From Nereocystis luetkeana (lineage: Eukaryota; Sar; Phaeophyceae; Laminariales; Laminariaceae): a stretch of 64,000 nucleotides of DNA. Shown in pieces: positions 9,065-61,601 of this stretch. The stretch's first letter is position 1; each line of letters opens with the position of its first letter. The notes under the pieces are model-generated. The model was not told the DNA's origin. It saw only the letters and a program-made list of their open reading frames with translations, and did no database searches. Location of the stretch: assembly GCA_031213475.1 (NCBI GenBank), contig JARUPZ010000016.1, positions 7,332,270-7,396,269 of the forward strand, written 5' to 3'. Made by a program: the position numbers and the translations under genes.

Positions 9065-9328
9065 TGCCTGTACTGCCAAACTTATCCCACTTTATCGACC
9101 AGGGTAAGCAAAAAAACTGGTGTGGTTTCCAAGAGAGGGTTTCAACACCGTTCCGCAAACCGAGAGCACTCCCGCAACGCGAACAGATGACACTTATTCG
9201 GACAGATCATCTACAGATCATGATCTACACCTTTCAGTGCAGATAGGTCATTTATTCCTGATCTGTATGATCTGTACGGTCTATTAATAGCTCATGTTGT
9301 CGGGTTGGACCCGTGTAGTCTGCATAAT

Positions 9329-9666
9329 CTTTTTTCTTTTTTTTTTCTCATCCCATTTATTATCTTTGCACATCTTCTCTCTCTCCTTCCCACTCGTAAC
9401 TAAGATCCGGGGTCACATAGCAGGCTCTTCTCCCCCCTTCCCGCTACGGTACGTGCCTTCATTTTTATCGCGAGAAGATTTCAGCCTTTTCTTCCCTCGT
9501 CGACTCGCATCGAATTGTGCCTACCCACGCTGCAAGTCGCTCTCAACAATTGAATCCTTTTTTATTTTTGCAAATAAAGTCAAAGTCCGACCCACCTGGG
9601 GCTCGAACCCAGGACTCAAACAAGTAGAATTCGAGGTTAACCACTTGAACCACCGGGGCGACCGGA
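9329..9666 (-). mobile_element. tRNA-derived SINE, copy 1
   Basis: Full-length SINE read on the minus strand. The tRNA-like head is at 9666-9590 with A box TGGTTCAAGTGG and B box GGTTCGAGCCC. A conserved body follows (TTTGACTTTATTTGCAAAAA; GATCTTAGTTACGAG-type segment), then an A-rich tail read as T at 9329-9347. It sits inside the GATC-rich repeat, splitting 9190-9328 from 9667-9770, so it is younger than that repeat. Confidence 0.92.
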
Positions 9667-9784
9667 TTTACCTAGGTACCTATTAATAGTACACATGATT
9701 CTTGGGTTGGATCTGTGTACCATGACGCAGATCCCGCACAAATCTCTGACGACGGTAGGTGGGGCACTACTCGTAGATGATTTC

Positions 9785-9977
9785 AACCCTTTCAGGACTG
9801 CAGTCCCAACTATTACGGGGGACCATGGTAAATAGGACCAAATATTGTTAGTAAAAATAGGTAAACATATACCTGGTAGGTTTTTGTGTCTGCCGTAGGT
9901 CCTATTTTCTATGGTCCCCCGCAATACTTAGAATTTGAGTGGATCGTCCCCAAAACGGGACTGCAGTTCTATATAGA
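9785..9977. mobile_element. MITE family B split by a family A copy
   Basis: Outer arms AACCCTTTCAGGACTGCAGT (left) and GTCCCCAAAACGGGACTGCA (right) belong to MITE family B. The family A element at 9813-9924 lies inside, flanked by TA on each side (CCAAC-TA ... TA-CTTAGAATTTG), which restores the usual B core AAACTACTTAGAATTTG when removed. A dozen bases of the left B arm are also missing. Confidence 0.85.
9813..9924. mobile_element. MITE family A, copy 4 (nested in MITE B)
   Basis: TTACGGGGGACCATGG left arm; CTATGGTCCCCCGCAA right arm; TA duplicated on both sides. Its core holds TACCTGGTA. Insertion into MITE B dates it as the younger of the two. Confidence 0.92.
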
Positions 9978-10083: not shown

Positions 10084-10827
10084 TCAAGTTGTAGATCACG
10101 ATCTGTCCCGATGCTTGTTTGCGGCTTGAACCAGCTTCGGTAAAAAGGTTCATCCATAGCCCACGAAAAGTCCTACTCATACTTCGACAAGAATGTCGGT
10201 CCAACTACAGACGGTATCATGAAATAAAACTCATTTTACTTCTTCGTCACGGGAAAATTTAGGCAGATGTCCAGGGTTTATACGCGCCTGTCGTATCCAG
10301 TATGATGGCATGGCATTGCATTGCCCACTGCTTTAGTGCATACGTGGCAACGTACTAACGTACTACTACCTGTCGTATCCCTCTGGATGTCAACGAGTAG
10401 AAAGGACGGTTTAATGTGAAGAACACACACATATAGAGCTCCACATATATAGGACTAGCATCTTGAACCTTCTCGGAATTGCAATTTTTGCCACACTAAT
10501 TTCAAGTGTTTCGCCCCCAAAAAGGTGGGGGCCGCTCTAAAGGGGTTGTAGTCACGTATATTTCAACCTTTTGGTCGGTGCTGGGCCCATAAGCCGACCA
10601 ACAAACGGTTAATAAGACAACCTATGTCTGCTATTAATACGAGTAGTGCTACTGTATGCGTAACCCCCCAGTACTTTTTCCGGGAAATTTCCTGGGTGGT
10701 CGGGGTCTTGGGGCTAGCGTTTGAAGCCTGGTGTGTTTCGACCATTGTGTCGAGTTTGGGCCAATAATACTTACCTGGTACCTGGTACGCGTATGATGTG
10801 CCGGTCGCCTCTCTGGGCCTATTAATA

Positions 10828-11313: not shown

Positions 11314-11455
11314 CGTTGATGCTGGAGTTCGAATCCCAGGTGGGTCGAACTTTTTAGTTTATTCGGACAAAATAAATGAAAATCGCAATCAGCTGCTGAG
11401 AGGGCCTACAGCAGTAGTAACGGTATTGATAGTAGTATTAATAGTGGTAATAATA

Positions 11456-11565: not shown

Positions 11566-11672
11566 TAGTAGTAGTAGTAGTAGTAGTAGTAGAAGCAGTA
11601 GTAGTATTAATAGTAGTAGTGGTAGTAGTAGTAGTAGTAGTAGTAGCGGTAGTAGTAGTAGTAGTAGTAGCG

Positions 11673-11740: not shown

Positions 11741-12597
11741 AGCAGCAGTGGCGTGGATTGATGCGAGCCGACCAGGGAAAAGAAAGGGCTACAGCCTTTT
11801 CGCGACAAAAATGCCTTCCAAGGCAAGAACCTTAGTGGGGAGGGGGGGAAAGCAGCCTGCTTTGTGACCCCGGATCTGAGTTACGACTGATAATCTCCAT
11901 AGATAGGGAGGAGAGAGAGTACACAAGGGCGAACAGAACAAATGAGATGCCGAAAAAATAATTTAAAAAAAATGATACGTATGATCCAAAGACAAAGCCC
12001 GCGAAGAGATCAGTTCTCATGCGTATGGTGGAGTTGGCAAGAGCCCCTGAAAGATATTATTGTAGTGTTGGACATCGTGTCGAAAGATTCGACGTTATCG
12101 ACACATCAAAACATTCGATATATATACGAGTATCATATCGGAACGAGTGCTGCGCTCCGTCCCCCATCCCCTGGCATCCCCGTGTTTTTATTTCAGGGTA
12201 CTCGCACTACTGCCGTAACTGACTGTATTGCACAAAAAAAAACAACTTAGTAGTGCTGCAGTGCACAGATACACACCTATTTTACCTCAAATTACAAATA
12301 AGTTGTGCCCAGGACGGGAGTTCGAGTTGTAAGTAGGCCAACTCCATGAAAATATCGAGATCGTGCGAATCGTTTTTTTTTAAATCCATTGTACACATAA
12401 CGAAAAGTAGGCCAACTCCATGAAAATATCGAGATCGTATCGGTATTTTTTTTAATCCATTGTACATATAATGTGTCGTTCGATGTAAAACACTACCTAC
12501 GTTGTCTTCCACACAACGATGCCAAGAGGCGGCAGTAAAACGCCTCTATTAATAGGAAGTCTCACACTATGATAATCGTAAAACCGCTATCAACAGC

Positions 12598-18655: not shown

Positions 18656-18760
18656 TTACGGGGGCCCATAGTTAATAGGACCAAATATTGTTAGTAAAAA
18701 TGGTTAAATATATAGGTTTTCATGTATACCATAGGTCCTGTTAACCATGGTCCCCCGTAA
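18656..18760. mobile_element. MITE family A, copy 7
   Basis: 105 bp, TTACGGGGGCCCATAG left arm and CCATGGTCCCCCGTAA right arm, flanked CTA...TAG. Core GGACCAAATATTGTTAGTAA is the empty form of the internal TA site. Confidence 0.95.
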
Positions 18761-18762: not shown

Positions 18763-20770
18763 GTCTTGCGGGTGGAGCGCTATTCTGGGCTATAAATCGG
18801 CACCTCTTCGACTACTATGTTGGCGTAGGCGTTTTTTCTCGTTTCTCGAGGGCTAAACCGACGCCTGTATGCAGGAGAAGGTTCTACGACAAAGAGTACG
18901 CGGGCCCCCGTGCATCCAGCCCGCGGCGGTGGCCGTTACTGAAAGGGGAGACTTTCAATAGTTTCGACCGGGAAAACATGGTCGGCGGTGTACATCGTGT
19001 ACCAGATACGTAGTCATATTATTCCTTCTGTAATCCGACAATGTGAGGCGAGAGTGTTAGGTACCTGACACAAAAATATTTACCCCATATATTATACCAG
19101 TACCAGGTACGCAGTACATACCAGTAGCGTTTTCCGCTGCAAAAACCCAGTTATATTTCTAGGGTAAAACAAAGTATGTATGGGGTTGCCATCCAACTCT
19201 ATTAATAGTGCAGCATGAACTTCAACTTTAATCACTCATAGACATACAGTAGTTCGAAAAAAGAAAAAACAAGGTAGAACAACAGGCGGAAAGCTTTGGA
19301 CGAAATAATAGTCCCACTCAACTGCTGTACAAAGGGTGAAGAATCTGTGATACTTCGTAACAAATTCTTGGAAAAACAGCATATGCATGCTCTGCAAAAA
19401 TGTAACGTCAAACAAATCGGTCTCAATTTTTTCGGCCACCACTGCAGTGTGCTCGTATGTGCTATTAGTAGTAGATCTCTACAGCAGCCAATTCGTGATA
19501 AATTCTACCGCCATACGAAGTATATGATGTAATGCAACCGCCATCACCTTTGACTAGCAACCTGATACACCTTACAGTCAGTGCGTGTGACTAACTGCTT
19601 GCTGCTGCATTAGTCAGTGGTTGACCTCGAGGAGATCCCACGCGGAAGTGCTCTGTAGTAACTGCTCAGTGGTAGGATCGTTCGAGACTTGAGACCGTAG
19701 TACGTGCGTAGCTTCGGCCTATGTAGTGCCTCTAGTGCCGTGCGCAAGAGCAAGACAGCACCCACCCTCGGATGACTTTCAAGGGCGGTTTTCTCGGCAA
19801 CGGGGGAGCGTACTGAGTACGCCGAGCGAAGCGCCTATGGAAATGTCTCCGCGAAATACTTCCAAAGCCACCATTTTCCATTTTCGGTGTATGTGCGCCC
19901 CCCCCCCCCCCCCCGGCGCCTTTTTTCCGATCCGATCCCTGATCGTAATCGTATTCGACCCAATTGGATCGGAAAAGTGCCGAAGGTGATTTCCTGCAAC
20001 TGGGCACCTGAAGAAGCGGGAAACAGCTCTAGATAGGTCTTGGAGAAAAGCCCAAGTCATTCCGAGGCGAGAAACAGCAGTTTTGCACATTTTGGAAGGC
20101 AAAAGCTCGTGCGAACGTGCCGATAGCACCATTTCTGACTGACTGCGAATCCGACTGTATAAGAAGTGGCCTTAATCTGTTCAGATGTGGTGGTATTGTT
20201 TCTTCAGCTCGTTCTATATATTAATAGTGTCTATCACATCCCCTGGGGGGGGGGGCACGGCAGCTTTTTCTTTCTCTTTCTCTTTCGATTTATTTTTCCT
20301 TGTTTTCTCTCTTTCAAAGAATGTGCCTCTCGTGCCTGTCGTATCCAGTGTGATGACATGGCATTGCATTGCCTACTCAGCTTACTGCATAACGATGTAC
20401 CAGGTATCTCTGACAGCTGAGTAGTTTGTGACTAAGAACTTACTTGTTCCTCGGGAGGATTGAAGAATCGGCACGGACACTGGTGGTGCTGGGCGTCGAC
20501 AGGTAGAAAGAGCGGTTTAATGCGAAGAACAAGGACACGGACGCCGGTTGTGCTTGGGGCGCACGGGTAGAAAGAGCGGCTTGATGTGAAGAACACGCAC
20601 AAGGAATTGCTCAGGATGGCATCATTCTGTATATGCGAGTAGTACATGAATATGTATACCCAGGTGTCCTGTCCCATAGCTTACCAACACCGGTATTACG
20701 TACCTGGTACACTATTAATGCTAATATTTATCCTGTATATAGAGGGGAAGTAGCCCTACAATATTAACAG
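18763..20770. other. No supported gene; fragments of dispersed repeats
   Basis: Contains TATTAATA at 19200 and 20219, a C run at 19896-19914, and repeated fragments such as AGAAAGAGCGGTTTAATG (20500-20600, twice) that recur near 10400 and 40860 in inverted form. Short ORFs have no recognisable domain. Confidence 0.45.
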
Positions 20771-21179: not shown

Positions 21180-22470
21180 GACTCCAGCTTAGGGGTCGTC
21201 AGAATCGAGAAGGAGCAGGGGGGGGGGAGATGACAGACCGACACCGATGGCGTGGGGATGGAGCTTGGATGCGGGTTAGGATCCAAGAGTAGAAGTGACG
21301 AGTACGTATTCAAATGTATTAAGATGTAGAAGGGAGAAAAAACAACAGAATATCGAAGACAAAACATAGAGGAAGCATAGAAGGTAGATAGACTTGGTGT
21401 ATATAGGTTTTCTTCGTATACGGAGATTTCTTCTTTCAGGAATGTTTTGATTGATCAACGTGAAAGCTCATGCTGCACATTGTCGGATGGCAAGCCTAAT
21501 AATAATAATGATAGTACGCACGAGTACAACAGCAGTAGCAGAACCAGGTAGAAGAGCTGAGAGCTCGTGTACAATACACATACTACGGAGAAACAACAAA
21601 AACAGTCGTCGGTACTTACGTTTTACTCGACTTTTCTGCTGGCAGTGCTGCGCTGTAGTTGTCCACTTTGAGCAGGGCCCACGGAGAGTCCACGGAGAAT
21701 TGCTCAGGATGTCATAATTCCGTTCCCTATGCGGGTAGACACTTCTGAAACAATTGTTAATAGGTGTCCCGTCCCGTATCTTACTTTTATACTATTGATA
21801 CTATACTGTTGTGGGAAGTAGCCCTATATAGAACAACTACTGTGAAGTGAAGGAGACATGGAAAGCAACGAACAGCAGTCGTGGGTAATGAGCACCAAGT
21901 ATTTCCCTAAAAATAAGCACAGTTTGTGTATTAATATTCAATCAGAACGGTGTTCTTATATTTGGGATAGAGTAGTACCAGGTATTTAGTACCAGGTATT
22001 TAATACGAAATTCTGCTTGCTGTGCTGTGCTTTAGTCGTCCGTCCACTTTCAGTTTTCCGGTGCATATCACGCGGAAATGCTCAGGATGCTATCACCCAG
22101 GTAAATATGTACCAGGTATCTGGTATAAAAGGTGCCCTGCCCTGTATACCTGGTACTAGTATACTGCTGTTTAATACTACTATTAATAAATAATAATACT
22201 ATACTACGAACTCTTTTAGGCAGTACTTGGTGAGTACGTAGATCCCTACAATCGGCGCGGGATAAACAAGGAGGAACATCCTCAGTCGGGTTGTTTTGAT
22301 ACTCTGCACGAACTTTCTGCTAGCTGCGCTCTGTACGGCTGTGTGCTGGAGTTGCACGTTACATGCATTTTGAGGAGATTCCACGCGTTCTATGATGCAG
22401 GTACGGAGGTATATACATACAGCTGCCGCTGTATAGATTTCTTATCCTGCTCAAGACTAAAAAAACGCTT
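21180..22470. other. No gene seen; repeat fragments
   Basis: Recurring pieces such as TTGCTCAGGATG preceded by CACGG (21700, also 20600 and 22080) and GAGGAGATTCCACGCG (22370, also 19630) mark an old dispersed family. TATTAATA occurs at 21929 and 22181, and TACCAGGTA motifs cluster at 21970-22150. Confidence 0.45.
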
Positions 22471-23207: not shown

Positions 23208-23465
23208 TAGGGCGCGCTAAATCATCAAAATGTCAATGTTGTGTCAAGACAAGAGTCTTGGTTCTGCACGTAGGAAGCTATTAATAGCCAAGCTAGAAGT
23301 TACAGGAGAATATACACAGGTACGAAGGAACGTTTTCGACATCACAAAATACGAAACTGTCTTCGAGTGCGGCGGAGCGAAGGAAAAAAACAAGTAAGCA
23401 TGTGTTCGAGAGCCCCCAAGAGACGTACCAAACTGCCTAAAAAAATAAATGAGGAGGTCGGTTGA

Positions 23466-24727: not shown

Positions 24728-25097
24728 ACCTACACTAGCGAAATACCTGGTACGTATTACGTAGTAGGTACACGCTAAATTTCTGTAACGATTGTTGTCT
24801 TATATATCGTATATACCTGGGAATCTGTAGTATACCGTATACCAGGTAAAACGTTATGACACCCCCCCCCATCGGGCGAATCCCCAGGTTGACTTTGTCT
24901 TGGAAATTTCTCGACGGGTTCGTACTTTCGAAACCCACCCATTTCGTTGGATGTGCCCCCCCCCCTTTGGATGTGCATGAGATGAGATACAGAGTGAGTG
25001 GTGGTCCCTCTATATTGCCGGTAAAATCGCTTGGCACAATTGTTACTCAGAAGTGTATGCGTTTTTCACATTAAACCATTTGTTCTATTAATAGCCG

Positions 25098-25616: not shown

Positions 25617-26037
25617 CCATGCATTTGCATGTCATCGCACTATTAGTATTAGTATTAATAGGCACGACATACACACAATGTGAAAAAGAGAAAACATTTG
25701 TAAAACATACGTAAAACAAGAAAAAAGAAAAAGGGAAAGAAACAAGAAAAAGTGTCGTGTGCTCTTCCCCCCCCGTGGGGATGTGGCAGTCAATACAGAA
25801 CGAGCTGAAGAAACAACAGCAGTAGCACGAAACAAAGCAGGCTCGTCATCCACCCACCACGCCACAAGACTCTCCGTTCATGAAGACAAGACGGAAGAGA
25901 GATAAAAAAGCAACACAAGACGTAACACAATCACGGAGGTTCGAAGCGCAAAAGTGTGGCATAGTAGTAATATGCCGGTTGCCATTATTATAGTGCCCCG
26001 TGTTGTTGGCTGATGCATACCGGCACTATTGTCCCTA
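25615..26037. other. No gene seen
   Basis: A-rich unique sequence; a TATTAATA site at 25653. Nothing else recognised. Confidence 0.5.
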
Positions 26038-26157: not shown

Positions 26158-26364
26158 TTACGGGGTAGTTAATAGGACCAAATATTGTTATTACGGGGGA
26201 CCATAGTTAACAGGACCTATGGTATACATAAAAACCTATATGTTTAACCATTTTTACTAACAATATTTGGTCCTGTTAACTATGGCCCCCCGTAATAGTA
26301 AAACTGATTAAATATATAGGTTTTTAAGTATACCATAGGTCCTATTAACTATGGCCCCCCGTAA
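26158..26364. mobile_element. MITE family A, copy 9 (host of a nested copy)
   Basis: Outer element: left arm TTACGGGGTAGTTAATAGG (five bases lost), interrupted after ATATTGTTA, resuming with GTAAAACTGATTAAATATA, ending CTATGGCCCCCCGTAA and TA. Removing the inner copy and one TA restores the family consensus exactly at that point. Confidence 0.93.
26191..26295. mobile_element. MITE family A, copy 10 (nested in copy 9)
   Basis: 105 bp complete element in reverse core orientation relative to its host, flanked by TA at 26189-26190 and 26296-26297. This proves the family's TA target-site duplication. Confidence 0.95.
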
Positions 26365-27050: not shown

Positions 27051-27589
27051 CATAGTAGTGCTGCCGCAGGAAATATGTAAAGTAGGCAAAATAGAACTAC
27101 CTGGTATTAATAATAACTAACTGGTGGTGCTCGAACTCAACTGTGAGCAAGCACAGGCGGACAGACACACAGGTAGATATTACCCCCGAAATCTGCTCAT
27201 GACAAAAATGAGACGGTAATCGGTGGAACCCTCTGTGCACGTTCTGTGCTGTGCGTTGTGCGCGGGTGCTCGTCTCCGCCCCGTTAGAGAGCGACGCTTT
27301 CAACAACCCCAACGTGTATGTCTGGTGCCTTCGCATCGAAAACCGTTATTTCTACCCAACTACATATTCGATAGCTACACCAGACCACCCACTTCTGTCC
27401 GTCCTGATTCCTAATATCCTACGTACGAGAGAGCTGCAAGTAATTCTGTCTTCCGACTGTGAGAGACGAAAAAAAAAAAGACAAAAAAAAGACAAAAACA
27501 CATACGAACCTCAAGTGTACAAGCATTTTTTCCCGGGTACTTTTTGTACTTTTTAATATGTAAACGTACAGGAGCGCAAGTATTATACA

Positions 27590-37800: not shown

Positions 37801-40800
37801 AAGTGCTGCCGTGGTTGTATCAATAGTAATTTTATTAAATCTTAGATCTTATTCTTCCCTCGGCTGTAATTTCGTATGATATGCTGGTATCGGTAGTACG
37901 TAACACTCTGTTCCTAAGCATACGGACCGTATTGATTGACTATTAATATTAGTCTACAAAAGGTCCTTATATTTAGGGAAAGAGTGGTAGTCTATTAATA
38001 GTCGAATACCTGGTACACTATTATTACCAGGATACCTTTGCGTTTTGTTTTTGTACAGCTGTGCCAGGTGATAATCCGAGGCATGATGCGTGCATAGGCA
38101 CAGAGTAGGAAGACCTTGTTGTTGTTCTCACATTAACTCTCTGACGAAGGAGTCCGTGGTCACACAAAGGTGCTGGAGCCCTAGGAAGATCCGAAAAACC
38201 ATAAAAAAAATCGAAATTCGGCAGCCTAAAAATGTACGAGACGAAGAAAGCGCACACAAGATAAAACCAATGTGCAGACTGAACTACTACTGTAACATGG
38301 CCGCGGGTATATCCTCTCAACTACAACATAGAGTTCCCCCGTTCCCACCACTAACCAAGGTGTGGCTGCTGACTACAGCGGCTGCTGTCTGCAGTGCTGC
38401 CTGCACCGTACGAAACGCACGGTAGTCGTGCATACAAGAGGGGAACACACCTGCCTGCTATCTGGAGTGCTGTCAGAGTGAAGACTGGCGGATATGCAGT
38501 GAAAAAGGAGTAATCGAACCTTACTATTACGGGGGACCCTAGTTAACAGGACCTATGGTATACATAAAAACCTATATATTTAACCATTTTTACTAACAAT
38601 ATTTGGTCCTGTTAACTATGGCCCCCCGTAATATTAATACCACACGAATATCCACGATCGCCATCTCTTCCTGGGATGTCTGACACAAGCACAGCTATGA
38701 TACCACGTCCCTGATGATTGCGTGGGTTATCCCCCGTGAAGGGTATACAACAAAGACCAGTGACGTTAATAACAAGTAGATACTATTCTGCATCGTGAAA
38801 AACAAAACCAGGAAAAAAACAAACAAACTATGACTGCTTCTCTCGTGATGATGGTGTGTGCGCCGGCCATGGGTCTCCGTGCACCGTCTTGCTGCCGCTC
38901 TTCATGGCCGCCTCATCGCCTTAGCCCCAACCCGCACGCTCCTTTGCACGTGCTCTCGTTGCCACTCCCTTCCAGTCGGTTCCCTTTCTCCGCCATCCCG
39001 AAAAACAATATACTCATCGCACTTGCCGTTTTGATCTGAAAAATAAAAATCCTCGCGCAGGGGGAGTGCAATCCGTCTCTTCCCCGCACGTCGACGCTCA
39101 GTCTCCCTCCTCCCTCGTCGTCGAATCCAGCCTCCTACCGGCGCAATAGACTGTGCCGTAGTGTGGCCTGTGGTGGCGCCTGCCTCCGCGCACGGACACT
39201 CCGATTGAGCGTTGCTGCTCTGCCGCAGCTGCCTAAAAAAAGACAGCGCGAATCGTAGGTCTCCGTGCCTGACGCACCACGTACGACCCAACTCTACTGC
39301 CGCCTGAGCCTCGCGGCCACAGGCAGCAGCAAGAAGGTATCACTCCTTGAGGAAGAGTCCGGCCTTACACCCGCCAGAAAGACCTACCCCACTCGATATT
39401 AGCCTGATAGGGCATGCCTCGCAGCATTCCTTGCCGAGGCAGCGAGGGGAACGGTGCAGACCTATGCCAATGGGAAAGCGAAGTATCAATAAAAAGTTTG
39501 AATTTCCAAGATACCCGCCAAAAAAAATAGAACACGCTTCCTACGGGCACGTTTAAAAGAAAAAAAAGAAAACGTTGGGAAAGCCCGAAAAAAGGACAAT
39601 CTGGGGTCGATGTTGGGCCCGCCAACATATTCTTGAGAAAAAGTCAGGCGGATGTTTGGTTCGAAGCGGCGAGATTCCGAGTCCTTGACAGACATCGATC
39701 GACAAAACCAACGACTGCCTCATGAATTCTGAACAGAGTGCGCTCGTTAGGGGCTCCGACCCACCCTAGGGTCACCTTCCTTCACACCGTGGCCGGTGTC
39801 ATGTGGCTGGCTGGAGCTGACCAGGCGTATGATAAAAAAAAAAACAATTGGCCGCTGGTGGGCATAAAACAGAAGACAACACTTCTCCATCTGTCTCGAA
39901 TGGCAAAAAATTGGTTTTGTTTCTGGTTCGGGAGGATACCGTAGGATGCCGCCGGCAAGCTCTCGCCCCCTAGACCATTGCGTCATCTATATTCGTTGGC
40001 CTTACCGGACACCGAGCGGATCGGCCGTGGGCTAAATCTATGTTGAGATCGAGCGTCGATCGTCGCACGTGTTGACAATTTGCAACCGGAAAAAAAACGA
40101 ATTGCGCCGCCTGCAGCCGTTGGAAAAAAAAAAGTCAAACATGTTTTCTCTTTTTTCCACAGCGGAGGTAATGGGAAATTTTCGACTGTTCTTTGGAAGC
40201 AATATATTTGAAAGAAAACTTTTGGACTTCGATTTTTCCGTTGGCATAGGTCTTATAGTGGACGAATGAATACTTCAAGGGTGTATTGTTCGTATGTGTA
40301 GTATAAATAACAGGGTGTATCCTCTGGATGTACCCGGGTATCTATCGGGAGGTGACCAACGTAACCAGTTTGGTACCCGGGTATCCCAGGGTATGTGTGT
40401 GTGTTGTCTTCACATTAAATCGTCCTTTCTACCCAGCTTCGTCAGTACCTAGTACCCAGTGTCCGTCCTGATTCTGTATCCTAGAAAGATACCTTGTACT
40501 ATTTACGTGGTCACTGACTATGAGACAGAGAAAGCCCAAAAGCGAACAAAAATAATCGCAAGTTCGTGGGTAAAGCAAGTGAAATGCCAGCGTACCGGGT
40601 ACGAGAACACAACACAAGAACGCAAGCAAGACCAGAAAATGAGAACAGGAAGACGATACATGAAATAAAAACTGAAATGAAACATAATACAAATGACGCA
40701 AAGAGATCAGAAACGTTGCTGTTGATGTGTGTGGGTGTTCTTCACATTAACCCTTTTCAGGACTGCAGTCTCGTTTTGGGGACAATTGGGGAAACATTAC

Positions 40801-43800
40801 TTGGAATTTGAGTGGATTGTCCCCAAAACGGGACTGGAGTTCTAAAGGGGTTAAACCGTTCTCTCTACCCGTCGACATCCAGCACAACCAGTGTCCGTGC
40901 CGATTCTTCAATCCTAGAAGAGATACAAGTTCTGTGGTCACAAAGCTACGCCACAGAGATACTACGTTGCCACGTACCGGTATACAGTATAAGCACAGCA
41001 GTGGGCATAGAGGGAAAGCATACGCTCTCGAGAAGGACAGATTGCTGCACGGACGAAGCAGCACGAAGGAGAGGAAGATGCTACCCGGTTATGCATCCTA
41101 CTAAACACTACTGCTACTATTATTAGTAATACTTTCAATATGTGCATTGTATTTCATCCGTCTACGAGGACGTATAGAACCACTTTCTTGGATCTAAATC
41201 CCTGAGCGTGCTCGGTTGGTACATCCCGGGCCTCTCAGAGCTCCCACTTGGAAACCGCCTCCTTTTATTACTTTCCCGAACATTTCCAGCAGTTCTTTGT
41301 TTTTTCCATTCCTCTTGGCACTCTCGGTCCTTTCTTCCTCTTTTCTTCATTCGTTTCATGTGCGTGCGTGTACTCCGAGCACGGCACGGCGGGTGAGCTC
41401 GGCGCCGTCGCGGGTGTCAGCGGGTGCTGACGGGTAGAGGGGGGGTTGCAAGAAGCGCGGTCACCGCTTCCGTGCCTAGGGGTCGCGTGTGCCTCGAGAC
41501 ACGAGGGATGCGTGAACGGGCTCTGTCTGGCCTCAATTTGCGATTTGGGATAGAGTATGTACGAGATATAAGGGTCGTTCGAAATTGCAAGGTACTGTTC
41601 AAACGGTGCTTATTTTTGCAACCACGCTGAAGTTGAAAGAGGGAGCTCCCAGTCTGAGTACCAATACTGTCGCGCTGGCGAACGACGGCCACGGTGAGCA
41701 CCGGGCTTCACGCGAGGCGGGCGACGGGGCTGACTGTGGCAGAGAGTCGGGAAAACTTTACCCGGACCGAATCGGTGGCGAGGTGGCCGCGAGAGGGGCG
41801 GGCGGCATACAAGGCTGAGAGAGAAGCTCTGCTGTTCATTTTTTCTCTTTTTTGACCGGTGCAAGGTCTTCCAATCAGGCAGAAAATTATTACAGGAAAG
41901 GGACGGGGATCGTTTTTTCTTCCCGAATTCTTCGGTTTCTATGTACAGTGTTTTTGCGGTGCTGCTGTGCCGCTGTGCCGTGCTGTGCTTTCTCTTTTGT
42001 CGTACATGAAGCGTATCAAAATCATACATTAAGTACCTGGGGTATGTACGTACGTGCGGCAACCGCCCGCGATACAGTGTGTGGCGTCCGAGCTGTTTTC
42101 TTTTGGCGGCGGGACTCTTGGCATTATCAAGTCGCCAGTTTGCAACTACGATCATAATAAAAGAAACTGTATTCAATCGTGGACCTCTGTCCGCTTCGCG
42201 TAGTAATTTGATGTACTTTTCCTTCCTGAGCTAGCGTAGCGGGCGGCGTAGCTACTAGACCGCCCGCGGAGCGAAGCGCCTTGTATATTATACTCACCTG
42301 GTGTGTACCGAGTATCACTGATAATTCACAGCTACCTCTCGCCAACCCCCCCTCCCGGAAAACCAAGTAAGGATGGCAACACTTTGCGGAGCTCTGATGT
42401 ATACCTAGGGTGTATGATACTTTTTTTCGCGCCAGACTCGGGCGAGAGGCTGAAAAACCTTCCCGTTAGTAAACGGTTGGCCTTTGCGTCGGCGGTGCTA
42501 GGTTTTAGTTCTTCCGTGTTGCGTGTGAGGTACCGGTAGTGTGGGATATCGTATCGGAAACATCGGTAAAAAGTAAAGCGAATGTCGGACGCTCGATGAT
42601 GTATCACATCGAACGCGTTTTGGCCCTCGAACCCTGGGCATACGTGTCCATCCGCGTATTTTCTTTTTGCCGATAGTGGGTAAAAAGCTTTCGTGTATCG
42701 AATGTCGAGGTCGTATCGATAAAACGAAAAAAAAAAAAAGTTTATCGATATCGCATCGAACTCGATATTGTTTATCGATGTACAAACATTGGTATTTTCT
42801 GCTATCACATACTGCCCAGCACGTCCAACGCTATTATTTTCTACCACTCACTACGGTACCCAGCGCCTCCAACACTATTATTTCTACTATTACGGGGGAC
42901 CATAGTAAACAGGACCACATTTTGTTGGCAAAAAATAATTAAATAAATACCTGGTAGGTTTTTGTGTGTACCGTAGGCCCTATTTACTATGGTCCCCCGT
43001 AATATTAATACTGCCAAGCGTAAATTTGCGCGAGTCGACGAGGAAAGAAAGGGCTGAAGTCTTCTCACGACGATAGAAACCTTAGGCACGAACCGTATTG
43101 GGGGGGGGGGGGGGGGGGGAAGGGGGGGGGGAGGGGCTGCTATGTGACCCCGGGTCTGAGTTTCGACTATTACAGGAGAGAGAGAAAAAGGAAGGGCGAA
43201 TACAGTAATAATATCAACCCTTTTACATAGGACTGCAGTCTCATTTTGGGGACAACCCACTTAAATTTCAAATAGTTTTGTCCCCAAAAACGGGACTGCG
43301 GTCTTGAAATGGTCAACATTTGCATTGATGGGTGGGATGAGAAAAAAATGAAAGGAAGAAGAAAGAAAGCACGTGCGACGCACGACGTATTTATAGCAGT
43401 ATATATGAATGCAGTGATAGCGGGCGGGTGAAGATGTGTTGATGGACCCGGGCGGCGCAGCGCCGTTTTGGGGCCGGTACAAACAAGTCCTCCCGTTCTC
43501 CCCAGTTGGCGGAGGAGAAAACGCCTCTGGGCCCCCTTGGTTCGCGATATATACGTGGTAAAGAGACCTCGGTATTAATAGTTGCATTTCGCGAGGCAGG
43601 GTGCTGACACGCTGAATGCTGACGGGTTCTCGGTTGGTAGCACCATGCGATACGTATCGTGTTGCAAGTGTATCAGGTATTAACCTACCGGTGTACCGGC
43701 ATGGACGTTTTTACAGCGGCAGCATGCACTGCTGCTGCTGCTGCTGCTGAGTGTCACATCGCACATATCGCTTCTGCTGTTATATACCAGGTATGTACCA

Positions 43801-46294
43801 GGTATATGTCGAATGCTTAAAGCTGTTGCTGAGTGTGGTATCAATATAATACTGCCATGCCATACGTACACGTACGTACGTACGTACCGGTTATACCAGG
43901 TACCAGTATATGTAAAATGCTCAATGCTGTTGCTCAGTGTGGTATCAGCATAATTACTCCTATGCACTACGTACGTACGTACGTACGTACGTATGTACCG
44001 GTTATACTTGCACTTGTATGCATGTTTGTTTGTTTTTTTTTCGTTTTCGGACACGGGAGGCGGGCACAAAACAAAGGGCGATTCTGCCACCGTCCGTATC
44101 ATGAAAGCTGGAAGGGCGCCCGCTCTGAAGAAGAAAATGGAGGCTCGTTTTGATCACGATAACTAAAGAAGCTTGAGCGAAGAAACGGTGCCCAAGGTCG
44201 GGTGCCACGTTGAATCCCATACTATGTAACAGCCCAACTAAATTATTGGCGACAAAATATGAAATGGAACCTCGACGCTGCTTGACGTTCCTTGCTCTAT
44301 ATATTGCGGGCGCCCTCTGTACTTCAGCACGAGAACCACGTAACATACCGTTGACCCTTTTAGGACCGCTGTCCCGTTTTGGGGTCAAACTGCTTGGAAA
44401 TTGAGTGGTTCATCCCCTAAACGGGACTGCGGTTCTAAAAGGGTTAATAAAAGCGTTGAATTCGCACAGGGATGCGATCTTTTTTTCCGTCATTTTACTA
44501 TTACGGGGGACCATAGTTAATAGGACCAAATATTGTTGGAAAAAAAATGAAATATAGAGGTTTTTGTATTTACCATAGGTCCTGTTTACTATGGCCCCCC
44601 GTAATAGTTCTTCTTTCCGGAACCGGAAGGTTGCCAACACCGAACAAACTTCAACCCTTTTTAGGACTGCAGCCCCGTTTTGGGGACAAAGCACTCAAAT
44701 TCTAAGTAGTTTGCTCCCAAAACGGGACTGCGGTCCTAAAAAGGGCTGAGAAGGTGTCTTCGGAGAATTCTGAACGAGAGAGCCCTCCGAAAATAGAATT
44801 GCTCGACTTTAAATTTCGGCAGTAGAGCACCCTTGCCGTCGCTTGCCGATACCGTCGCTTGCCGAGAAAACGAGCGCTGAGAAAACGAGCGCTGAGAAAT
44901 GATCGCGCGCGCCCCCGCCCTTGCGCCAGCTCAACGGTCTTATTTACGGTGGCCTCGTTTTTTAATCTCAAGTTTGTCTTTTTGTTCTATAAAATTACCT
45001 AAAGGGTCCCAATTCACAGCAGGGGTACGGAAGTGTCCAGGTGCCTTGTTCGTTCATACGGCTGATGCTGCTCACTCACCATCGATGGGCGGACGAGTTG
45101 TTGAGACCTCGCTTTTACTTCTCTCGGTTTTGTCTTTGTTTTTGTGAAATACCCGTGGGTGGTCTCGATTGACAGCAGCGTGGTGAAATATGTATACCTG
45201 GTACGTTCATACGGATGATGCTACTCACGATCGCGATGGGCGGGTTGTTGAGATCTGGCTTTTCTTCTCATTTTTGTCTTTGTTCTATAGCATACCTGGG
45301 TCCTCATTCCTGATGGGTTGAGATTTTACCTGATACCTTCGTCCGGATGATATTATTAATAATAGTATTACTATCATGTCATCCCTCGGAGTAGTATTTG
45401 TAACAATCAGCATGTCGTGTTAATATTATAAAGTACCCTGGTAGTATAATATATGTGTCTATTGGTAAGGCTGCGTTCGCCAGGGTTTGGAAATCCCGAA
45501 TGCGTTTGTGCTCCTGCTGCTGCTGGTGTTGCTGTTTGTTGTTGCTGCTGTTGCTTCTGAGAGGTGTGTGTGTTTCGATCAGATTTTTCGTGGGTTTATG
45601 GTGTCGTGTATAGATAGCGCGCAACGCCATAGCAGCAGCACAGCATCTCGCCCTCGCTTTGCCGGTTGTACCGTTAGCCTCTCTCGCAGCTTGAAACTTG
45701 AAGAAACTTTGGCAAATACGCAGGAAAAAACACGCCTCTAGCCATACACGAAACCCCGCCGTTGTGCGAAGGCTGGGTCTTCTCCGCAAGGTACCGCGCG
45801 TAGGGGCATTCGAGCGCTATGTTTCATGGAAAGGGAAAGCGCGGGGGGGGTGTGCTTGCACGCGCTCTATATTATCTTTGCAGTTATTTTGTTAGTTGCC
45901 ACAGTAAGTACAGTGATATTCGGTATGAATGCCTTGTAAGTGTTCTTGACGACCTGTGAAGGTACGGGTGGGCTCGCTGCGTTCTTCCGGTGATGCCGAC
46001 GGCGAATGCCCTTGGTTATCTGCAGCCCACTGCGTGTTTTTCAAAGTTTAGTTGTTCCGTCTACTCATGTCTGCCCCCCCCCCCCCCCCCCCCCCCCCCG
46101 TCGCACGCCTTCATGAGATCAGGTATCGTCGCTGTCCCTCCCCCTGGCGAAGCTTGTCGCCGTGTACGAGCAGCTCGTTCTGGAGCTGCTGGAGATGAGG
46201 GAGCTCGACGTCGCCAGGTGAGACGTTTTTGCGCTATTGAGTTCCCTCTCCCCTCCCCCCCCCCCCCCCCCGACTGCTCGACGATACTTTGCCT

Positions 46295-50800: not shown

Positions 50801-53201
50801 TTATATTTAGAGTGAATGGTCCCCACATATGGGAGTGCGGTTCTAAAAGGGTTAAGCTTCATTTTTACCAATCCGTCGGAGGATAGAAAAAGAAAGAAAA
50901 ACGAAACAAAATCACCCCATGTGCGTGAAAAAACGTGTCCCCTCTACCTATTTCAAATACAAACCGCAGTATCATATTCGCCCTCTTATTACGGGGGGCC
51001 ATAGAAAATAGGGCCAAATATCGTTATTACGGGGGAACCTATTAAATAGAACCTACGGTATACACTAAAACCTTTATACTTCGCTTTTTTTACTGGCAAT
51101 ATTTGCTCCTATTTACTATGGTCCCCCGTAACAGAATAAATAGGAAAACATATAGCAGGGTAGGTTTTTGTGTGTACCGTCGGTTCTATGGTCCCCCGTG
51201 ACAGTAGACAGGAAAACATGTAGTTTTTTTTGTGTGTACCGTAGGTTCTATTTAATAGGTCCCCCCGTAATAGGGACAGTCGAGGGGGGAAGAAGGCTGA
51301 CGGTGAAAAGTTAAGTGACGAGCTACCGCAGAGGGCAGCGGCGGGCTGCCGCTGCGTGATGTAGGGGATGAGATACAATGGTTGGTGTCCGAGTCTATTG
51401 CGGGGGACCATAGTTAATAGGACCTATGGTATACATAAACACCTACACATTTAACCATTTTTACAAACAATGTTTGGTACTATTAACTATGGCCCCCCGT
51501 AATAGTTACAATGCGAGGACAGGCACAGGGGCGCAAGGTGATCCTCTACCCATACTGCTCCCAGACGGTTCAAATGGTTGTCAGACCCAGTTTTACCAAC
51601 CATTGTTCTGGCCGCTATCAAAGGAGCCCCCAAGGGGTTACCATTAATAGTAAGGTATTTTTGTGCACTCCTCGTGCTGGTACGTGCCTGGTACGATATG
51701 CAAGGCATGAAGCACGAAGGCCCAGCTATCAATAGCTGCTTCGGTGGACGGGGCTGCATCGACTACAAACCGAAAAAGCCAACTCGTCTTCAAAAGTTTT
51801 CTGGAATACAACGCAGAGCCTGGCTGGCAGAGGTTCTTCCCCCCCCGCCCCCAAACTTAACTGAGAGAAACCGGACACCCAAATTTCTCCACGAGGTCGC
51901 CAGTGCTTACCCCTCACCTCCCTTCATCGAGGACGGTATATTTCTTCTCTCGATGGCCGACGCTGTCAATGCCCTCCCCCCCAAATGTCTGCCTGGTCGG
52001 CGAAAACCTGACGTACTCCGTCCCGGCATTGTGGGGATGCGAGGGTCTATGTTCATACGACTACGGTCATGCATGATTGTGATAACGAGTACACCCCCCC
52101 CCCCCCTCCCCGCCCCTTCCCCCCCCCTTCCAAGCCACAACTGCCGATACCCCCTCCCCTGCCTTCCTCCCCTCCCAACCCCTGACCCCAATCCCTTCCC
52201 CCAGCCCACATGTCCAACCTCTTACCCCAACCCCTATTCTCAATCCCTGACTCCGATTCCAACCCCTAACCCCCACTCTTATAACCCCACCTGCTAACCC
52301 CAGCCCGTGTAATACCAACCCTTGACCCTAACCCCAAATACTAACCTACCAGGATACTACTAATTCCGACCCCTTACCCCACACCTAGACCCCAACCACT
52401 ACCCCCAACCCCTAACCCCAATCTATAACCCCAACCCCATACCCCAGCCCCAACCACTACTCTCAGCCTTTCACTCCAATCTCTAACCCCAACCGCGAAC
52501 CCCAACCCCCAACCCTAACACCTACCCCCAACCCCTGGTCCCAACCCCTTACGCCAACTCCTTAGCCCAGCCTCTAACCCACCCCCATCTCTAACCCCAA
52601 TCCCTATCACCTCCACCCAACCCTCTACCCTAACCCCAACCCCTGATCCCAACCCCTAACCCCAACCCCGAATCCTCATCCCTAACACCTATGGCAAACC
52701 CCTAACCTCAACCACTAACTCTAGCCCCTATCCCTCCGTCGATCGATGCCCCCCCCCCCCCCCCAAGTCGGTGCGTGCGGATTTCACATGTGCTTGCATG
52801 TCTCCGAAGGGGCGGTGGGTGTACTGCGTGGGGGAAGACGGGGAGATGGTCTGCTTCAACGCGGCGACGGCTGAGATGGAGAGGGTGATGAAGGTGTCGG
52901 ACAAGGAGGTTATCGGCCTCGCGCATCATCCCCACAGGTGAGGGAGGGAGGGTAGGAAGGAGGGAGGGGGAGAGGAGGGTACACTCGATACCATGCATGG
53001 CCGTAGTCGTATGGCCTCAGACCCTCGCATCTCTACAATGCCGGAACGGAGCCCGTCGGGTTTTCACCGTCCAGGGAGGGGGGGGGGGGGGGGGGGGGGG
53101 GGGCACCGACGAGTGGGTATCGGTAGAAGGAGATAAAGGCTGGGGAGTACGAAGTGCGACTTTGTGCCTGTGTGGCATCAGTCGTTTATTGTTGTTGGTG
53201 G

Positions 53202-53515: not shown

Positions 53516-54780
53516 CGGGGGACTTTTACTATTTCTATGAATACTTTAGGTGTTTGGGGTGTGTTGGGGGTAGGTGCAGGGAGGAAGTAAAAGCGGCGTG
53601 GTGGGTCAATGCATGAACAGGCCGGTGCGGGAGGAACTTGGGTGCGTGTGTGTGTGTGTGTTTTTTTTTTCGTCCCTGACCAAGCTATGGTATTAATAGT
53701 GCGCTGTGGCTCTTTTGAAGCGGGGTTGGGTCTTGTGTTCAGGCTTGGCTGGCGCGTAAGCAGGCGCCGGTAGCGTGCCAGGTAGTGAGTTCTGTGGGGG
53801 TTTCGAAGCGCGCGCGGCGAGTTTCCCTCTTCTTGCCCATATCGGTCGTCATCGAAAATCCGAGTCGGAGGAAAAAAACGGCCGGTCGTTCAGGAGCGGC
53901 GCTGCGTATTTTTGTTTCTCTTGCCCAACCCGAACAACCAAAGTTTTTATGCCGGCGGTATCGTGGCGGTTACGTGTTCGTTTCGAGCGTGAGCTACAAG
54001 CTTGTCGTCGCCCGTCGATCATGAGACAGGTCAGACAGGAGGGACAAGAACGGGTACGAGGCGTTTCGAGCGCGATTCACAGCAAGTTTCTCTTTGCCTG
54101 ATCGACTGGCTAGAGCCGAAAGCCGGTGGTACACCGTGTGGGTACAGCTTCAGCTCGAGCTCGCTTCTTGCCAAGGTGCTATTTTGCCCGAACGATCAGC
54201 TTATTAAAGTCAAGCCGGAGGGAAAGTGGGCACTACGCAGTAGTGGTAGCTCTGTTTTATACCAGGTATCAAGCATGCACAAGTTTATCGCGCCCGGTCG
54301 GCCAATCGAAAGTCAGAGCTAAAGGTGCCGTTTTTTTCGCAGCTTCGGCGGCGGCAGCGCTGGCGCTGCGGACTTTTTGCATTATAACACCGTCGAGTTT
54401 TACCTGAAGCACCACGCATAGGGTGGTTACATTAAATCTGGCGGGCGTTCCCGCTCAACCTTAAAGTCTCACCACACGTGTAGCTAGCGCTAGCCCGGCA
54501 TGCCTAGAGGGGGGAAGGGAGGGGCGGGGGGCCGGCCTAGGGAGGAGAGGGTGTGGGGGGGGGAAAGGCTCTCCGGGTCTTCGGGAGGGGCCGCTGAACG
54601 GGAACGGGCTGTTTGTTTCTGTTTCGATAAAACCTTGCAATCGGACCTTGGCTTCTTGCGTCTTGTGCCTCGCGACCCGGAGCTCGTCCAGGAACGGGAC
54701 GACCCCTGCACTACCTGCAGTAGCTGAGAACCGGTTGACTTCCATGCACTCCAGTAGTGAGTTATCAGATAGGAGACTCA
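53516..54780. other. Downstream of SMU1: no gene seen
   Basis: Probably includes the SMU1 3' UTR and terminator. No clear AATAAA near 53515. Plus-strand ORFs at 53775-54322 overlap in several frames without a domain; a minus-strand stretch at 54640-54715 is discussed among the rejected items. Confidence 0.45.
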
Positions 54781-58070: not shown

Positions 58071-61000
58071 CTACTCGGTCGGTCCTTCTTCTTCTTTCTC
58101 TTCCTCCACTCCCACAACTTCACGCTCACCAGCGCCACCCTCACAATCGCCACCTTGTAGAGGAACACCCTCCTCCTTCCCCTCCTCCTCATCCTCCTTG
58201 TCCTGGTCGACACCCACCACCCCTCGAATGCCATCACCACCACCACCACGGCCACCGCCATGCTCTCCTCCCGCCACTCCCTCCCAATCGCCCCCTTCCC
58301 CCTCCCCACGCTCAGCTTCCTCCGCATGGGTTTCCAGACGCCCCCCCTCCCCCCCTCCGTCCTCCTCCTCGGCATCGTCGTAGTGGTCCCCATCCCCGCC
58401 CGACACAAAAACGCCTCCATCATCTTCCATGTCACCACCCTCGCCCTCGTCCCTGTCCCCGCCCTCGTCCTCCTCTTCGTCAGCATCAAAGTCGTGCTGA
58501 TTGGAGGACGGAGGCAATGTAGAGAGGCGGGGAGGGGGGGGGCAGAAACATGGAACGGAAAATAAACAAGGGGGATTATTGGCGCCGGTGATGATGCCGA
58601 GCATGACCAGCAAGAGCGTGAATGCGTGAGTGTGAGTGTGCGAGGGGGGGGGAAGGGAGGAAGCATTGGCTGGGGGGATCGGGGGGGGGGGGGAGGTGTG
58701 CTCATGTCATGCATGGCCATAGTCGTATCCCACAGACCCTCGCACCCCTACAACGCCGGGACGGAGCACGTCGGGTTTTCACCAACCAGGCAGACATTGC
58801 TTGCGCCAAGCGCCAAGCGAAACGCTAGGTGTTCGGTGAGTCGCATGAAGGATGCATCCTACTAATAACCGTTGTGAGGCAGACTTTCTTGCATACGGAC
58901 GACCGCGTCGAAAGGGCGGGGGGGGGGGGGGGTATGTCGTAACCCTCCGAGATAGGACTGGTGATTGACTGCGCGGGCTGGGCCTGGTGATTGATGTCCC
59001 GATTGTGTCATTTTTGGTCGGTCGTCAAAGTGCGCGAGCCTTGGGCAGATTGATAGCTCCAGTCGATGCATCAACCAATCAATCAGGCAATCAATCAATC
59101 AACCAACCAGCCAATCAGCCAATCAACCGGTCGATCAATAAACCAATCACCCAACCCCCTAAAAACACGGACCTTCCAACCTTCCAACCACCCAGCCAAC
59201 CATGAATCATTCAACCAACCCACGGATCAACCATTCAAAGAGAGCCGCCCGACGCCATCACCGAAACAGACCGTCAGCAAGCCCAAAAAACAGGCCAGCC
59301 CCGTCCCCTTTTTCAACAGCCCCTCCCCACCGCTCTCCCCACCCCCGTCCCGGCATTGTAGGGATGCGAGGGTCTATGGTCATACGACTACGGCCGCGCA
59401 TGAGATCGAGTACATCTCTCCTATCGAGTACCCCCCCCCCCCCCCCCCCCCCCCGCCGACGCTTGCGCTTACCCTCATGTAAATATCGAGGGGATTATCC
59501 GTAATGTCCCCTCGCAACGCCTCCCCCAATTCGTAGTCGTCCATGTCCTCGCAAAATATCTGACCAAAAGAGAGAAGAAATAAACAGAAACGCGTGAGTG
59601 CAGAGACGCCGCAACGACAACAACATATTGAGAACTCCCGACCAGGAAACAAAAAAAAAACACCTCGCCGAACTCAGCGGATGTTCCGAACTCAACCGGT
59701 GGTGTCTCGAACTCAGTGGATCCCCCGTTCCGAACCCAACGGATATTTCCTAAATCAACGGATGTTCCGAACTCAACGGAGATTCCGAACTCGACGAACA
59801 TTCCGACTCGGCGGATATTCCAAACTCAACGGATATTGATTCCGAAACTCAACGGATGTTTACGGGGTGAGACAGGACGAGCCGCGATGGGACACGGTAC
59901 GACGGCAAGAAAGCGAGATGATACTATTAATAGGCGAGACGGCACGAGGCCACCGACATGCACATAACTCCCACAGTCGAAGAGCTATCTACCCTCGTGT
60001 GCGGTGTGTGGGCCGACACAGCGCTCGCAACATTTCTGGAGTAAACAAGGAGCCATAGCACGACCAGCCTTTCCCTCGAGACACCACACGCCAGAGCGAA
60101 GAACCTCGGGAAACAAATTATCTTCATGGTATACGGTAATGACGCTCAGCGATTACTAAGCCTTCGACTGAAACAACACGAAACATCACAGCAACAGGTA
60201 CTCAAAATTCCAAGTGATTCGTACCCGACTTATGGTTGCAGTTATTTGTAAAGGGAATATAATAACGGAATAAGAACGCGTAGAAAATATGGAATAACAG
60301 ATACTCAAAATCCCAAGTGATTCGTACCCGACTTATGGTCGCAGATATTCATAAAGGGAATATTAAAAAAAGACTGAGAAAACGTTAAACATATAGAACA
60401 ACAGTAATAGTAAGACACCCCTCACGCACCCCGCCCACCCTATAGGGACATGCTGCTACTGTGTACGCATGCCCCCCTGCCTACTGCAGTATGTGTGGAA
60501 ACCCCGCACAACTTGGACATATTTCATCCCCTATATATGCCGTGGATGTTTTGGAGCAAATAGATCCCTGATTAATACGATCTGCGCCGGGTGGGCTATG
60601 TATATATGACACGGGTGTTGCGCACATGTTTGCCGCGTGTGCACAATATTGGTATCAGGTATCTCACGACGGAGAACACAGGATCAGCAATAGAATATCC
60701 ACGGCAGATCGTGATCTGACGCGTAACGGCAATTACGGGATCTAACATCAGATTTTCAGCAGCAGGTCGTGATCTGCCTTCTACAACGGAAAATACAGGA
60801 CCCACAACAGATTAGGCAAAATTCGAGATCTGCCTCATAACGACAAACACAGGATCTAATATCACGGGGGGGGACCATAGTAATCAGGACCCATGATACA
60901 CAATAAAACCTATATGTACCAGTACTATTCATAAGCATATTTGGTCCTGATTACTACGTCCCCCCGTATGTTGGTGGAATATGTAGATCATTGTCTCTCT

Positions 61001-61229
61001 CATAGCGACACATGTAGGATCAACTATAGACGATCTGCAGTAGATCGTCATCCGTCCGGTGCATAGGATTTATGATAGAGGATCTAGATCATGATCTGCC
61101 GGGCGCCCTCACCGAGAAAAACGAGGGCGTCTCCTCGTGCTCCGCCGTGGGGTCGATGTTCCAGACGAGGCAGGACTGCAGCTCCCTAGCCTCCTCCGTG
61201 TCCTTCCACTTCACCACCGAAAATGTCGC
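58071..61229 (-). CDS. SET: SET/NAP-family histone chaperone, C-terminal three exons
   Basis: SET/TAF-I-type member of the NAP family: nuclear, binds core histones through the earmuff domain and an acidic tail. Minus-strand exons: 61229-61113 (39 codons), 59559-59473 (29), 58496-58071 (141 plus TAG). All junctions are AG/GT and phase 0. The joined stretch EETPSFFS|IFCEDMDDYELGEALR, then GDITDNPLDIYMR, matches human SET around EPESFFTWF and ELGEVIKDDIWPNPLQYYL. Upstream, FSVVKWKDTEEARELQ matches STEIKWKSGKDLTK. The last exon begins HDFDADEEEDEGGDRDEGEG and stays Glu/Asp/Gly-rich to EEEGPTE and stop, far longer than the human tail. The N-terminal half (dimerisation helix) is not found; it lies in missed exons between 61230 and 64000 or beyond the window. 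The gene converges on SMU1. Confidence 0.78.
58680..58863 (-). repeat. Poly(C)-ended element, full-length minus copy
   Basis: Read on the minus strand from TAGTAGGATGCATCCTTCAT through GCGCTTGGCGCAAGCAA, AAAACCCGACGTGCTCCGTC and GGGATACGACTATGGCC to a C run (G at 58682-58694). Its start equals that of the 32628 copy, so the 5' end of the family is TAGTAGGATGCA. In SET intron between exons 2 and 3. Confidence 0.88.
59065..59220. repeat. (CAAT/CAAC)n tetranucleotide tract
   Basis: Runs of AATCAATC, AACCAACC and TTCCAACC, 59065-59150 densest. Confidence 0.85.
59346..59454 (+). repeat. Poly(C)-ended element, 5'-truncated copy
   Basis: Begins at CCCGGCATTGTAGGGATGCG, then ATGGTCATACGACTACGGCC, GAGATCGAGTACATCTCTCC and about 25 C. 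The C run ends 18 bp from the SET exon 2 donor (minus strand). Confidence 0.88.
59668..59862. repeat. 18 bp minisatellite (AACTCAACGGATATTCCG)
   Basis: About ten units of CCGAACTCAACGGATGTT with small variation; in SET intron 1. Confidence 0.9.
60195..60400. repeat. Roughly 100 bp tandem duplication
   Basis: TACTCAAAATTCCAAGTGAT, TCGTACCCGACTTATGG and GTAAAGGGAATAT occur at 60199 and again at 60301. The text resembles the right half of MITE family B. Confidence 0.8.
60560..61090. repeat. GATCTGC tandem region with MITE A inside
   Basis: Units of about 70-90 bp with CAGATCGTGATCTG and ACAGGATCTAATATCA, related to the GATC-rich repeat at 1204. Confidence 0.65.
60862..60969. mobile_element. 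MITE family A, copy 23
   Basis: TCACGGGGGGGGACCATAG left arm; right arm CTACGTCCCCCCGTAT. TA on the left; right end degraded. Confidence 0.88.
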
Positions 61230-61601
61230 CTGGGGTTTCGACCGGTACGGAGGGAGGGAGGGACGGAGGGAGGGGTTGAAGGAGGGAGGGTAAAAGGGAA
61301 GGGGGTGGCGCACTCGTGTCACGCACGGCCGTAGATATACAGCGAGAGAGGGAGGGCGGGGGGAAGGCAGAGAGGGAGGGTGGGAGAGTACGGGGGATGG
61401 CGTGGGGGCATACCTTTACCCTGTTCCTATGATGCTACAAGCCCCATATATAACTCAGATACCAGTACTTTGTGCTCCAAAGGTGAATGCAGACACCAAG
61501 AGGTTGTATACTATTAATAACATGCAGTGGGGTTTTTTGACCGGGAAGGAAGGGGCGGTGGGGGGACGGGGGAACGGGGGGGACGGGGGGGGGGGGGTCA
61601 C

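Follow-up and report, generated by a model that had tools for sequence, protein, structure and literature searches.

The stretch of the Nereocystis luetkeana genome analysed here (the window, 64,000 nucleotides; C16:7332270-7396269) carries a short element, MITE A, and a palindromic 8-mer, TATTAATA, which is very probably the repair scar left by excision of MITE A, a TA-inserting cut-and-paste element. MITE A, typically 105 bp long with ends TTACGGGGG...CCCCCGTAA, is short, non-coding, bounded by terminal inverted repeats and present in high copy number, the features of a miniature inverted-repeat transposable element (MITE). Its intact copies span 104-108 bp between TTACGG and CCGTAA ends. 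Most are flanked by TA on both sides, often as CTA..TAG, and bare copies of the site show a single TA. MITE A duplicates TA, and the scar retains both TAs plus four bases. Across the assembly searched, composed of 465,085,209 bases in 1,987 contigs, the exact 20-mer of end plus flank, CTATTACGGGGGACCATAGT, occurs 15,871 times (7,974 + 7,897), against 0 for its control. A plasmid BLAST with a MITE region as query gave no match.

Intact copies of MITE A are positioned at 18656..18760 (+, the strand label being arbitrary; 105 bp, TTAC..GTAA between CTA and TAG), 37013..37117 (-), 37196..37300 (+), 38527..38631 (-) and 44501..44604 (+; 104 bp). Another, 26191..26295 (-), is nested in a second MITE A copy, at the TA that is scarred in the copy containing 34409. 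The copy at 51027..51131 (-), whose right-hand TA reads CA, sits at the corresponding TA inside a broken MITE A.

The 8-mer occurs exactly 28 times in the window, matching the first-pass annotation, which had listed at least 28 copies; 27 of its 28 positions are correct, and the copy placed at 27115 starts at 27105. Dinucleotide shuffles yield a mean of 0.73 copies and a maximum of 4, with 0 of 100 reaching 28, in line with the single chance copy that it had expected in 64 kb. Eight of the 28, again as claimed, extend by exact match to CTATTAATAG. An order-3 Markov model of the window predicts 2.0 copies; orders 4 to 6 predict 9.5, 17.5 and 27.3, larger because such models absorb the word itself. 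Among the 256 palindromic 8-mers, TATTAATA ranks first in the window.

Three of the sites are scars by comparison with other copies: 815..822, in a tandem/dispersed repeat whose other copies are 6 nt shorter with a bare TA; the CTATTAATAG site at 9282..9289, in a repeat with 2091 first-look candidates, of which 20 other copies were compared; and 34409..34416, within the MITE A copy 34374-34483, where other MITE A copies have a bare TA. At the CTATTAATAG site 25086..25093, 6 nt are missing from three of the five paralogues, which read TAC where TATTAATAG stands. The remaining CTATTAATAG sites are presumed scars by exact match: 9681..9688 (with its C/G flanks; no informative paralogue), 12547..12554, 19200..19207, 23279..23286, 37993..38000 and 59925..59932. 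Exact matches to TATTAATA give further presumed scars at 10632..10639, 20219..20226 (paralogue gaps here differ in length), 25653..25660, 36826..36833, 37582..37589 (a weak paralogue lacks TATTAATA), 43573..43580, 53691..53698 and 61512..61519. The copies at 21929..21936 and 37941..37948 are weak paralogues, both with the 8-mer, and the one at 27105..27112 has one TA in common with TACCTGGTA at 27098. Four are doubtful as scars: 11436..11443 in a TAG-rich simple repeat, 11605..11612 in a TAG microsatellite, and 22181..22188 and 45354..45361 in TA-rich tracts.

The 8-mer also adjoins a MITE A end at four sites: 10820..10827 (left end at 10828), 38632..38639 (right end of 38527-38631), 43003..43010 (right end of 42890-43002) and, outside the window, L018:9955. 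Either scars may make favourable TA targets for a new insertion, or, of two neighbouring MITEs, one may have departed. Scars show weak clustering near MITEs: 8 of the 80 lie no more than 50 bp from one, where simulations average 3.2 and reach at most 9.

Beyond the window, the excess was followed in a sample of 20 stretches of 10 kb (L005-L024), one per contig C1-C20 at an identical offset and so not a random draw, comprising 197,500 bases without N, or 261,400 together with the window. Sample and window hold 80 copies of TATTAATA against 6.5 predicted at order 3, and the 8-mer ranks third there, after TATATATA and ATATATAT. The genome-wide enrichment check suggested by the first-pass annotation, run against a reversed-letter control, returned 22,282 copies of CTATTAATAG versus 267. 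Extrapolation from the sampled stretches puts the genome-wide number of TATTAATA copies at the order of 100,000. In the sampled stretches scars outnumber surviving copies of MITE A by 52 to 12 loci, but not clearly so in the MITE-rich window (28 to 25, fragments included); the suggestion of more excisions than surviving insertions, which had been made for the window, is thus borne out in the sample but not clearly where it was made.

Paralogous copies of the 8-mer sites

Self-comparison reveals homologous copies of scar sites that are exactly 6 nt shorter and carry a bare TA. A flank-join test covered 84 sites from the window, L005-L024 and L001-L004, the latter retrieved by motif; its controls were 1,314 TANNNNTA sites, excluding TATTAATA, TATATATA and TACGACTA, of which 167 had paralogues. 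Fifteen of the 84 scar sites have a paralogue on both flanks, with a bare TA in 8 of 15 and the same length in 0 of 15. The corresponding control values are 7 of 167 and 88 of 167 (Fisher p 1.3e-6 for bare TA and 3.7e-5 for same length). A looser alignment test found paralogues for 24 of 93 sites. A bare TA was seen at 13 sites, a paralogue sharing the 8-mer at 5 and one of equal length at 9. One repeat family accounts for five of the 13 bare-TA sites, leaving nine separate sites with a bare TA; the window contributes three, at 815, 9282 and 34409. An untargeted indel scan of 302 insert-bearing sites placed TA[TTAA]TA first among TA-x-TA inserts, with 7 of the 46 six-base indels, followed by TA[CGAC]TA with 6 of the 46; TACGACTA indels make up 6 of the 46.

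One dispersed repeat exhibits the site in all three states, as judged by comparing copies of the repeat in a single genome and not alleles from related strains. Copy L002 (C1:115009) carries TATTAATA, and the homologous L005 has a full MITE A at the identical spot, its left TA reading TC. The search for this repeat gave 398 first-look candidates, 40 of them scored, and 42 match rows, from which all 39 full-length non-self copies were compared. Together with L002 and L005, the resulting 41 copies comprise 26 with a bare TA, one with TT, six with the exact TATTAATA (L002, L026, L027, L030, L031 and L061), one with MITE A, one with TATTGATA, one with TATAATA and five with further short variants. 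The closest relatives of L002 and L030 are bare copies.

The three states also occur within MITE A. At an internal TA, TTGTTAGTAAAA is the reading of many copies; the copy 34374-34483 reads TTGTTATTAATAGTAAG; and a second MITE A is nested at the identical TA in 26191-26295 and 51027-51131, so that all three states lie within the window. This internal-site comparison ran at loose thresholds with many chance rows, so that, among the matches listed, only those in MITE A copies were used. At 9282, where 20 of 39 non-self rows were compared, the site reads TA in 12, TG in one, CA in one, TATTAATA in one (L086) and TATTGATA in one; one more ends in TATTAACA (L095), and three show longer local variation.

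Mechanism and competing explanations

Scars and MITE A have a flank preference in common, judged here by direct frequency tests instead of a log-odds correlation, which was non-discriminating (0.73 for scar versus control, 0.68 for scar versus MITE). With the 80 scar sites read on both strands, C precedes TA in 82 of 160 flanks; for MITE A the figure is 33 of 52, which does not differ from that of the scars (p 0.15). It is 511 of 2,263 for other TANNNNTA sites and 46 of 228 for AT-rich 8-mers. TAC precedes the site in 22 of 160 scars, 12 of 52 MITE A flanks and 103 of 2,263 controls. The excision-scar interpretation put forward by the first-pass annotation is upheld by the genome-wide excess, the presence of three states at one site and this common flank preference; its proposed comparison of MITE, scar and bare TA found every state when made on repeat copies within the one genome.

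The product spectrum is narrow. Alternative joins are rare in sample plus window, with CTATTTAG at 0, CTAAATAG at 1 and TATTATAATA at 1, versus 17 for CTATTAATAG, and the one-base-longer joins CTATTTAATAG and CTATTAAATAG occur once and three times. In the proposed scheme, MITE A would insert preferably within C-TA-G, duplicating TA, and its excision would keep both TAs with a few end bases between them. A Tc1/mariner-type transposase would cut 3 nt inside each 5' end and leave 3'-TTA tails; two such tails would pair via their own TA, and filling of the remaining one-base gaps would give TA-TTAA-TA almost always. A single product would then dominate because TTA overhangs anneal through their own TA. 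Two-nucleotide TT tails are unable to pair. The rule of two retained bases per MITE end, from which the 8-mer had originally been predicted, yields the correct word, but a 3-nt TTA overhang would account better for its uniformity. Three-nucleotide 3' overhangs are described for Sleeping Beauty and mariner (PMC7827188).

Several observations weigh against this reading. Four of the six scars in the dispersed repeat cluster on a weakly supported tree and may be inherited from a common ancestor; the query of that search itself bore a scar, which biases the scar fraction upward; and the five short variants fall outside the simple model's prediction. The filled state comes from one dispersed-repeat copy (L005, with one base changed) and the two nested copies only. 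The three-nucleotide model is derived from the very product that it accounts for, and the sites at 11436, 11605, 22181 and 45354, in TAG/TAT-rich simple repeats, are maybe not scars. Nor did a transposase with MITE A ends emerge: a profile search of the genome with PF13358 gave 0 matches, and one with PF01359 gave 0, as it did in control genomes. PF03184, of the pogo group, gave 28 matches, and the flanks of the 13 of these that were read contain no MITE A-type end pair.

One element found among these matches, L072:739-2922 (C33), is 2,184 bp long and TA-flanked, with CAGTACCGGCC inverted ends around a PF03184 frame containing one in-frame stop; a Tc1/mariner-superfamily element of a different family is therefore present in the genome. 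L074 has one CAGTACCGGCC-type end. An autonomous partner suspected in L045, where MITE ends are widely spaced over 7.65 kb, resolved by its end motifs into separate MITE A copies, and TTACGGGG at L070:1179, near a transposase match, is not part of an inverted repeat. Placing MITE A under the Tc1/mariner mechanism relies on traits of its sequence, a TA target-site duplication and a footprint of TA, a few end bases and TA, and not on a gene. The staggered cut 2-3 nt inside its 5' ends is one that we infer from the product spectrum only.

The alternative that survives best, to which we give a minor but appreciable chance, is that the scars derive from another TTA-ended TA element, or from a set of families that share the termini of MITE A, itself just one of them. 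Any TTA..TAA-ended element could give an identical footprint, and the 52 to 12 ratio of TATTAATA to MITE A loci in the sampled stretches would suit additional sources. The filled state at scar sites, however, is MITE A, which is also the main recurrent TA-flanked, TTA-ended family, with 24 hits beginning TTACGG against 2 beginning TTAATA in inverted-repeat scans of the sample.

Far less credible is the notion that TATTAATA is a pre-existing, unvisited target into which an ACGGGGG...CCCCCGT core enters between TATT and AATA without duplication, even though a filled CTATT-ACGG..CCGT-AATAG would collapse to CTATTAATAG. In both deeply examined repeat families most copies have a bare TA and a minority have TATTAATA; control TANNNNTA sites seldom lose 6 nt; and the 6-nt length difference at nine separate sites would be left unexplained. 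Loss of the MITE by hairpin cleavage or replication slippage, with no transposase, is equally hard to credit: the shortness of MITE A and the possible pairing of its ends speak for it, but slippage between the TA duplicates predicts a bare TA, while the scar retains a set number of bases from each end. Least plausible of all is an excess arising from composition, simple repeats or another 8-mer-bearing sequence family, since the TAG/TAT-rich setting of some sites and the commonness of TATATATA are outweighed by the shuffle mean of 0.73, the reversed control (267 versus 22,282), the variation between sites outside the C/G flanks and the homologous sites without the 8-mer.

Further scar-like motifs and other features

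Beside the MITE A scar, a second motif, TACCWGGTA, looks like a 7-bp, scar-like insertion at TA. It occurs 44 times in the window versus 0.45 in shuffles, and 182,395 times genome-wide versus 1,744 for its control. Window examples lie at 1850-1865, 4430-4445, 10772-10787, 26958-26980 and 29715-29730, some of them head to tail with a common TA, a form counted 10 times in sample plus window. At L005:5266, where 20 of 86 non-self rows, many of them partial, were compared, the 7-base insertion is missing from all 20 homologous copies: 12 have a plain TA, 7 a variant pair of bases and one a gap. L008:3808 is a further site with a TACCWGGTA insertion. One MITE A subfamily carries the insertion too, as TACCTGGTA at an internal TA that is bare in others (window 8593, 9870 and 42948; L022:7056); either the scar was passed on as the subfamily amplified, or the site recurs.

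No CCA- or CCT-ended parent of TACCWGGTA was recognised in 281 kb. Scanning for inverted repeats of the form TA-CC..GG-TA yielded 16 pairs. Most of those starting CCA or CCT consist of two copies of the 9-mer or are MITE A stretches; others start CCC or CCG, such as CCCGTCGACATCC in L006 and L014, and none was tied to the TACCWGGTA scar. CTACWGTAG is also over-represented in L005-L024 plus the window and fits the footprint of CAG-ended elements. It is not claimed here as a third scar: 3 of 30 sites have paralogues, 0 of them with a bare TA. The CAGTACCGGCC ends of the L072 element would predict TAC(A/T)GTA footprints by the rule that we presume to apply.

A broader reading, on which we are evenly divided, takes the genome as a countable excision record written by near-deterministic, overhang-paired repair. 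Its scar alphabets would number two or more: TATTAATA, left by MITE A, and TACC(A/T)GGTA, left by a ghost transposon that was not seen in the sample and is represented by scars only. The central A/T of the latter would be an overhang mismatch resolved either way, and a third alphabet, TAC(A/T)GTA, may come from a pogo-type element with CAG ends.

Other features complete the picture of the region. A second MITE family, CCCTTTTAGG..CCTAAAAGGG, occupies 9993-10081, 18199-18287, 40762-40850, 44355-44443, 44656-44744 and 50762-50850; at least two of these copies (40762 and 50762) have TTAA at each end, making the family piggyBac-like by target. Long inverted-repeat elements with three overlapping arm pairs extend over 9420-11197 and 22535-25530, and two window stretches (24478 and 25354) are 97% identical over 251 bp. 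A reading frame with an NB-ARC domain on the minus strand (16634-17782), accompanied by overlapping frames on the opposite strand, is 96% identical to a partial Laminaria digitata protein, with further matches from other brown algae. At the left edge lies a degenerate tandem repeat with a unit of ~50 bp (95-1207), and a 100-N assembly gap spans 48688-48787. In the sample, nested inverted GCTGCC/CAGACA repeats with TA junctions (L008:3464-5169) bear TATTAATA and TACCTGGTA sites.

Comparison with known systems

Excision records are normally varied and hard to read, and mostly the surviving elements are seen, so element traffic is hard to count. A uniform scar that is rare by chance makes gains and losses countable separately in one genome: how excision compares with retention, how far sites are re-used and how old the activity is all become measurable, and the scar reports the end-joining route of the host. 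Short over-represented palindromes may accordingly be transposon scars, not regulatory motifs, and, if the TACCWGGTA case is true, extinct elements would be recognisable by their scars alone.

A genome-wide scar census of this kind was not found in the open-licence literature, where a search with the motif gave only unrelated plant papers, and a text search of two kelp genome papers (PMC4421812, PMC10498591) found MITEs and mariner unmentioned in their text.

MITE A resembles the Tc1/mariner elements Tc1, Sleeping Beauty and Mos1 in its TA target, TA duplication and the end bases held between two TAs. Published Tc1/mariner footprints generally measure 2-4 bp, with zero to three base pairs reported for a fish element (PMC7913693); MITE A is unlike them in that one product dominates, in tens of thousands of copies. 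The scar has TTAA at its centre, a piggyBac-like trait, and piggyBac excises seamlessly from a TTAA target according to PMC7351741. A piggyBac origin for MITE A was rejected: its flanks duplicate TA, not TTAA, and excised sites keep 6 extra bases.

The Stowaway MITEs of Triticeae are likewise TA MITEs, with scars at empty sites and repeated gain and loss at one site, including one element inserted beside an old footprint; the extracts available report several footprint kinds at one intron, and they give no genome-wide record (PMC1925063). A comparison of two rice genomes likewise takes a genome-wide view of excision products: as far as the excerpt goes, 8 of 94 excisions left only the duplicated target, and the rest show deletions, filler or both (PMC4423477). 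Repair of MITE A looks near-uniform against these mixed products, the method here differing in that a single product was searched for. That TA-flanked elements excise is already known; what looks new is how large and how uniform the present record is, together with the second scar, which lacks a known parent.

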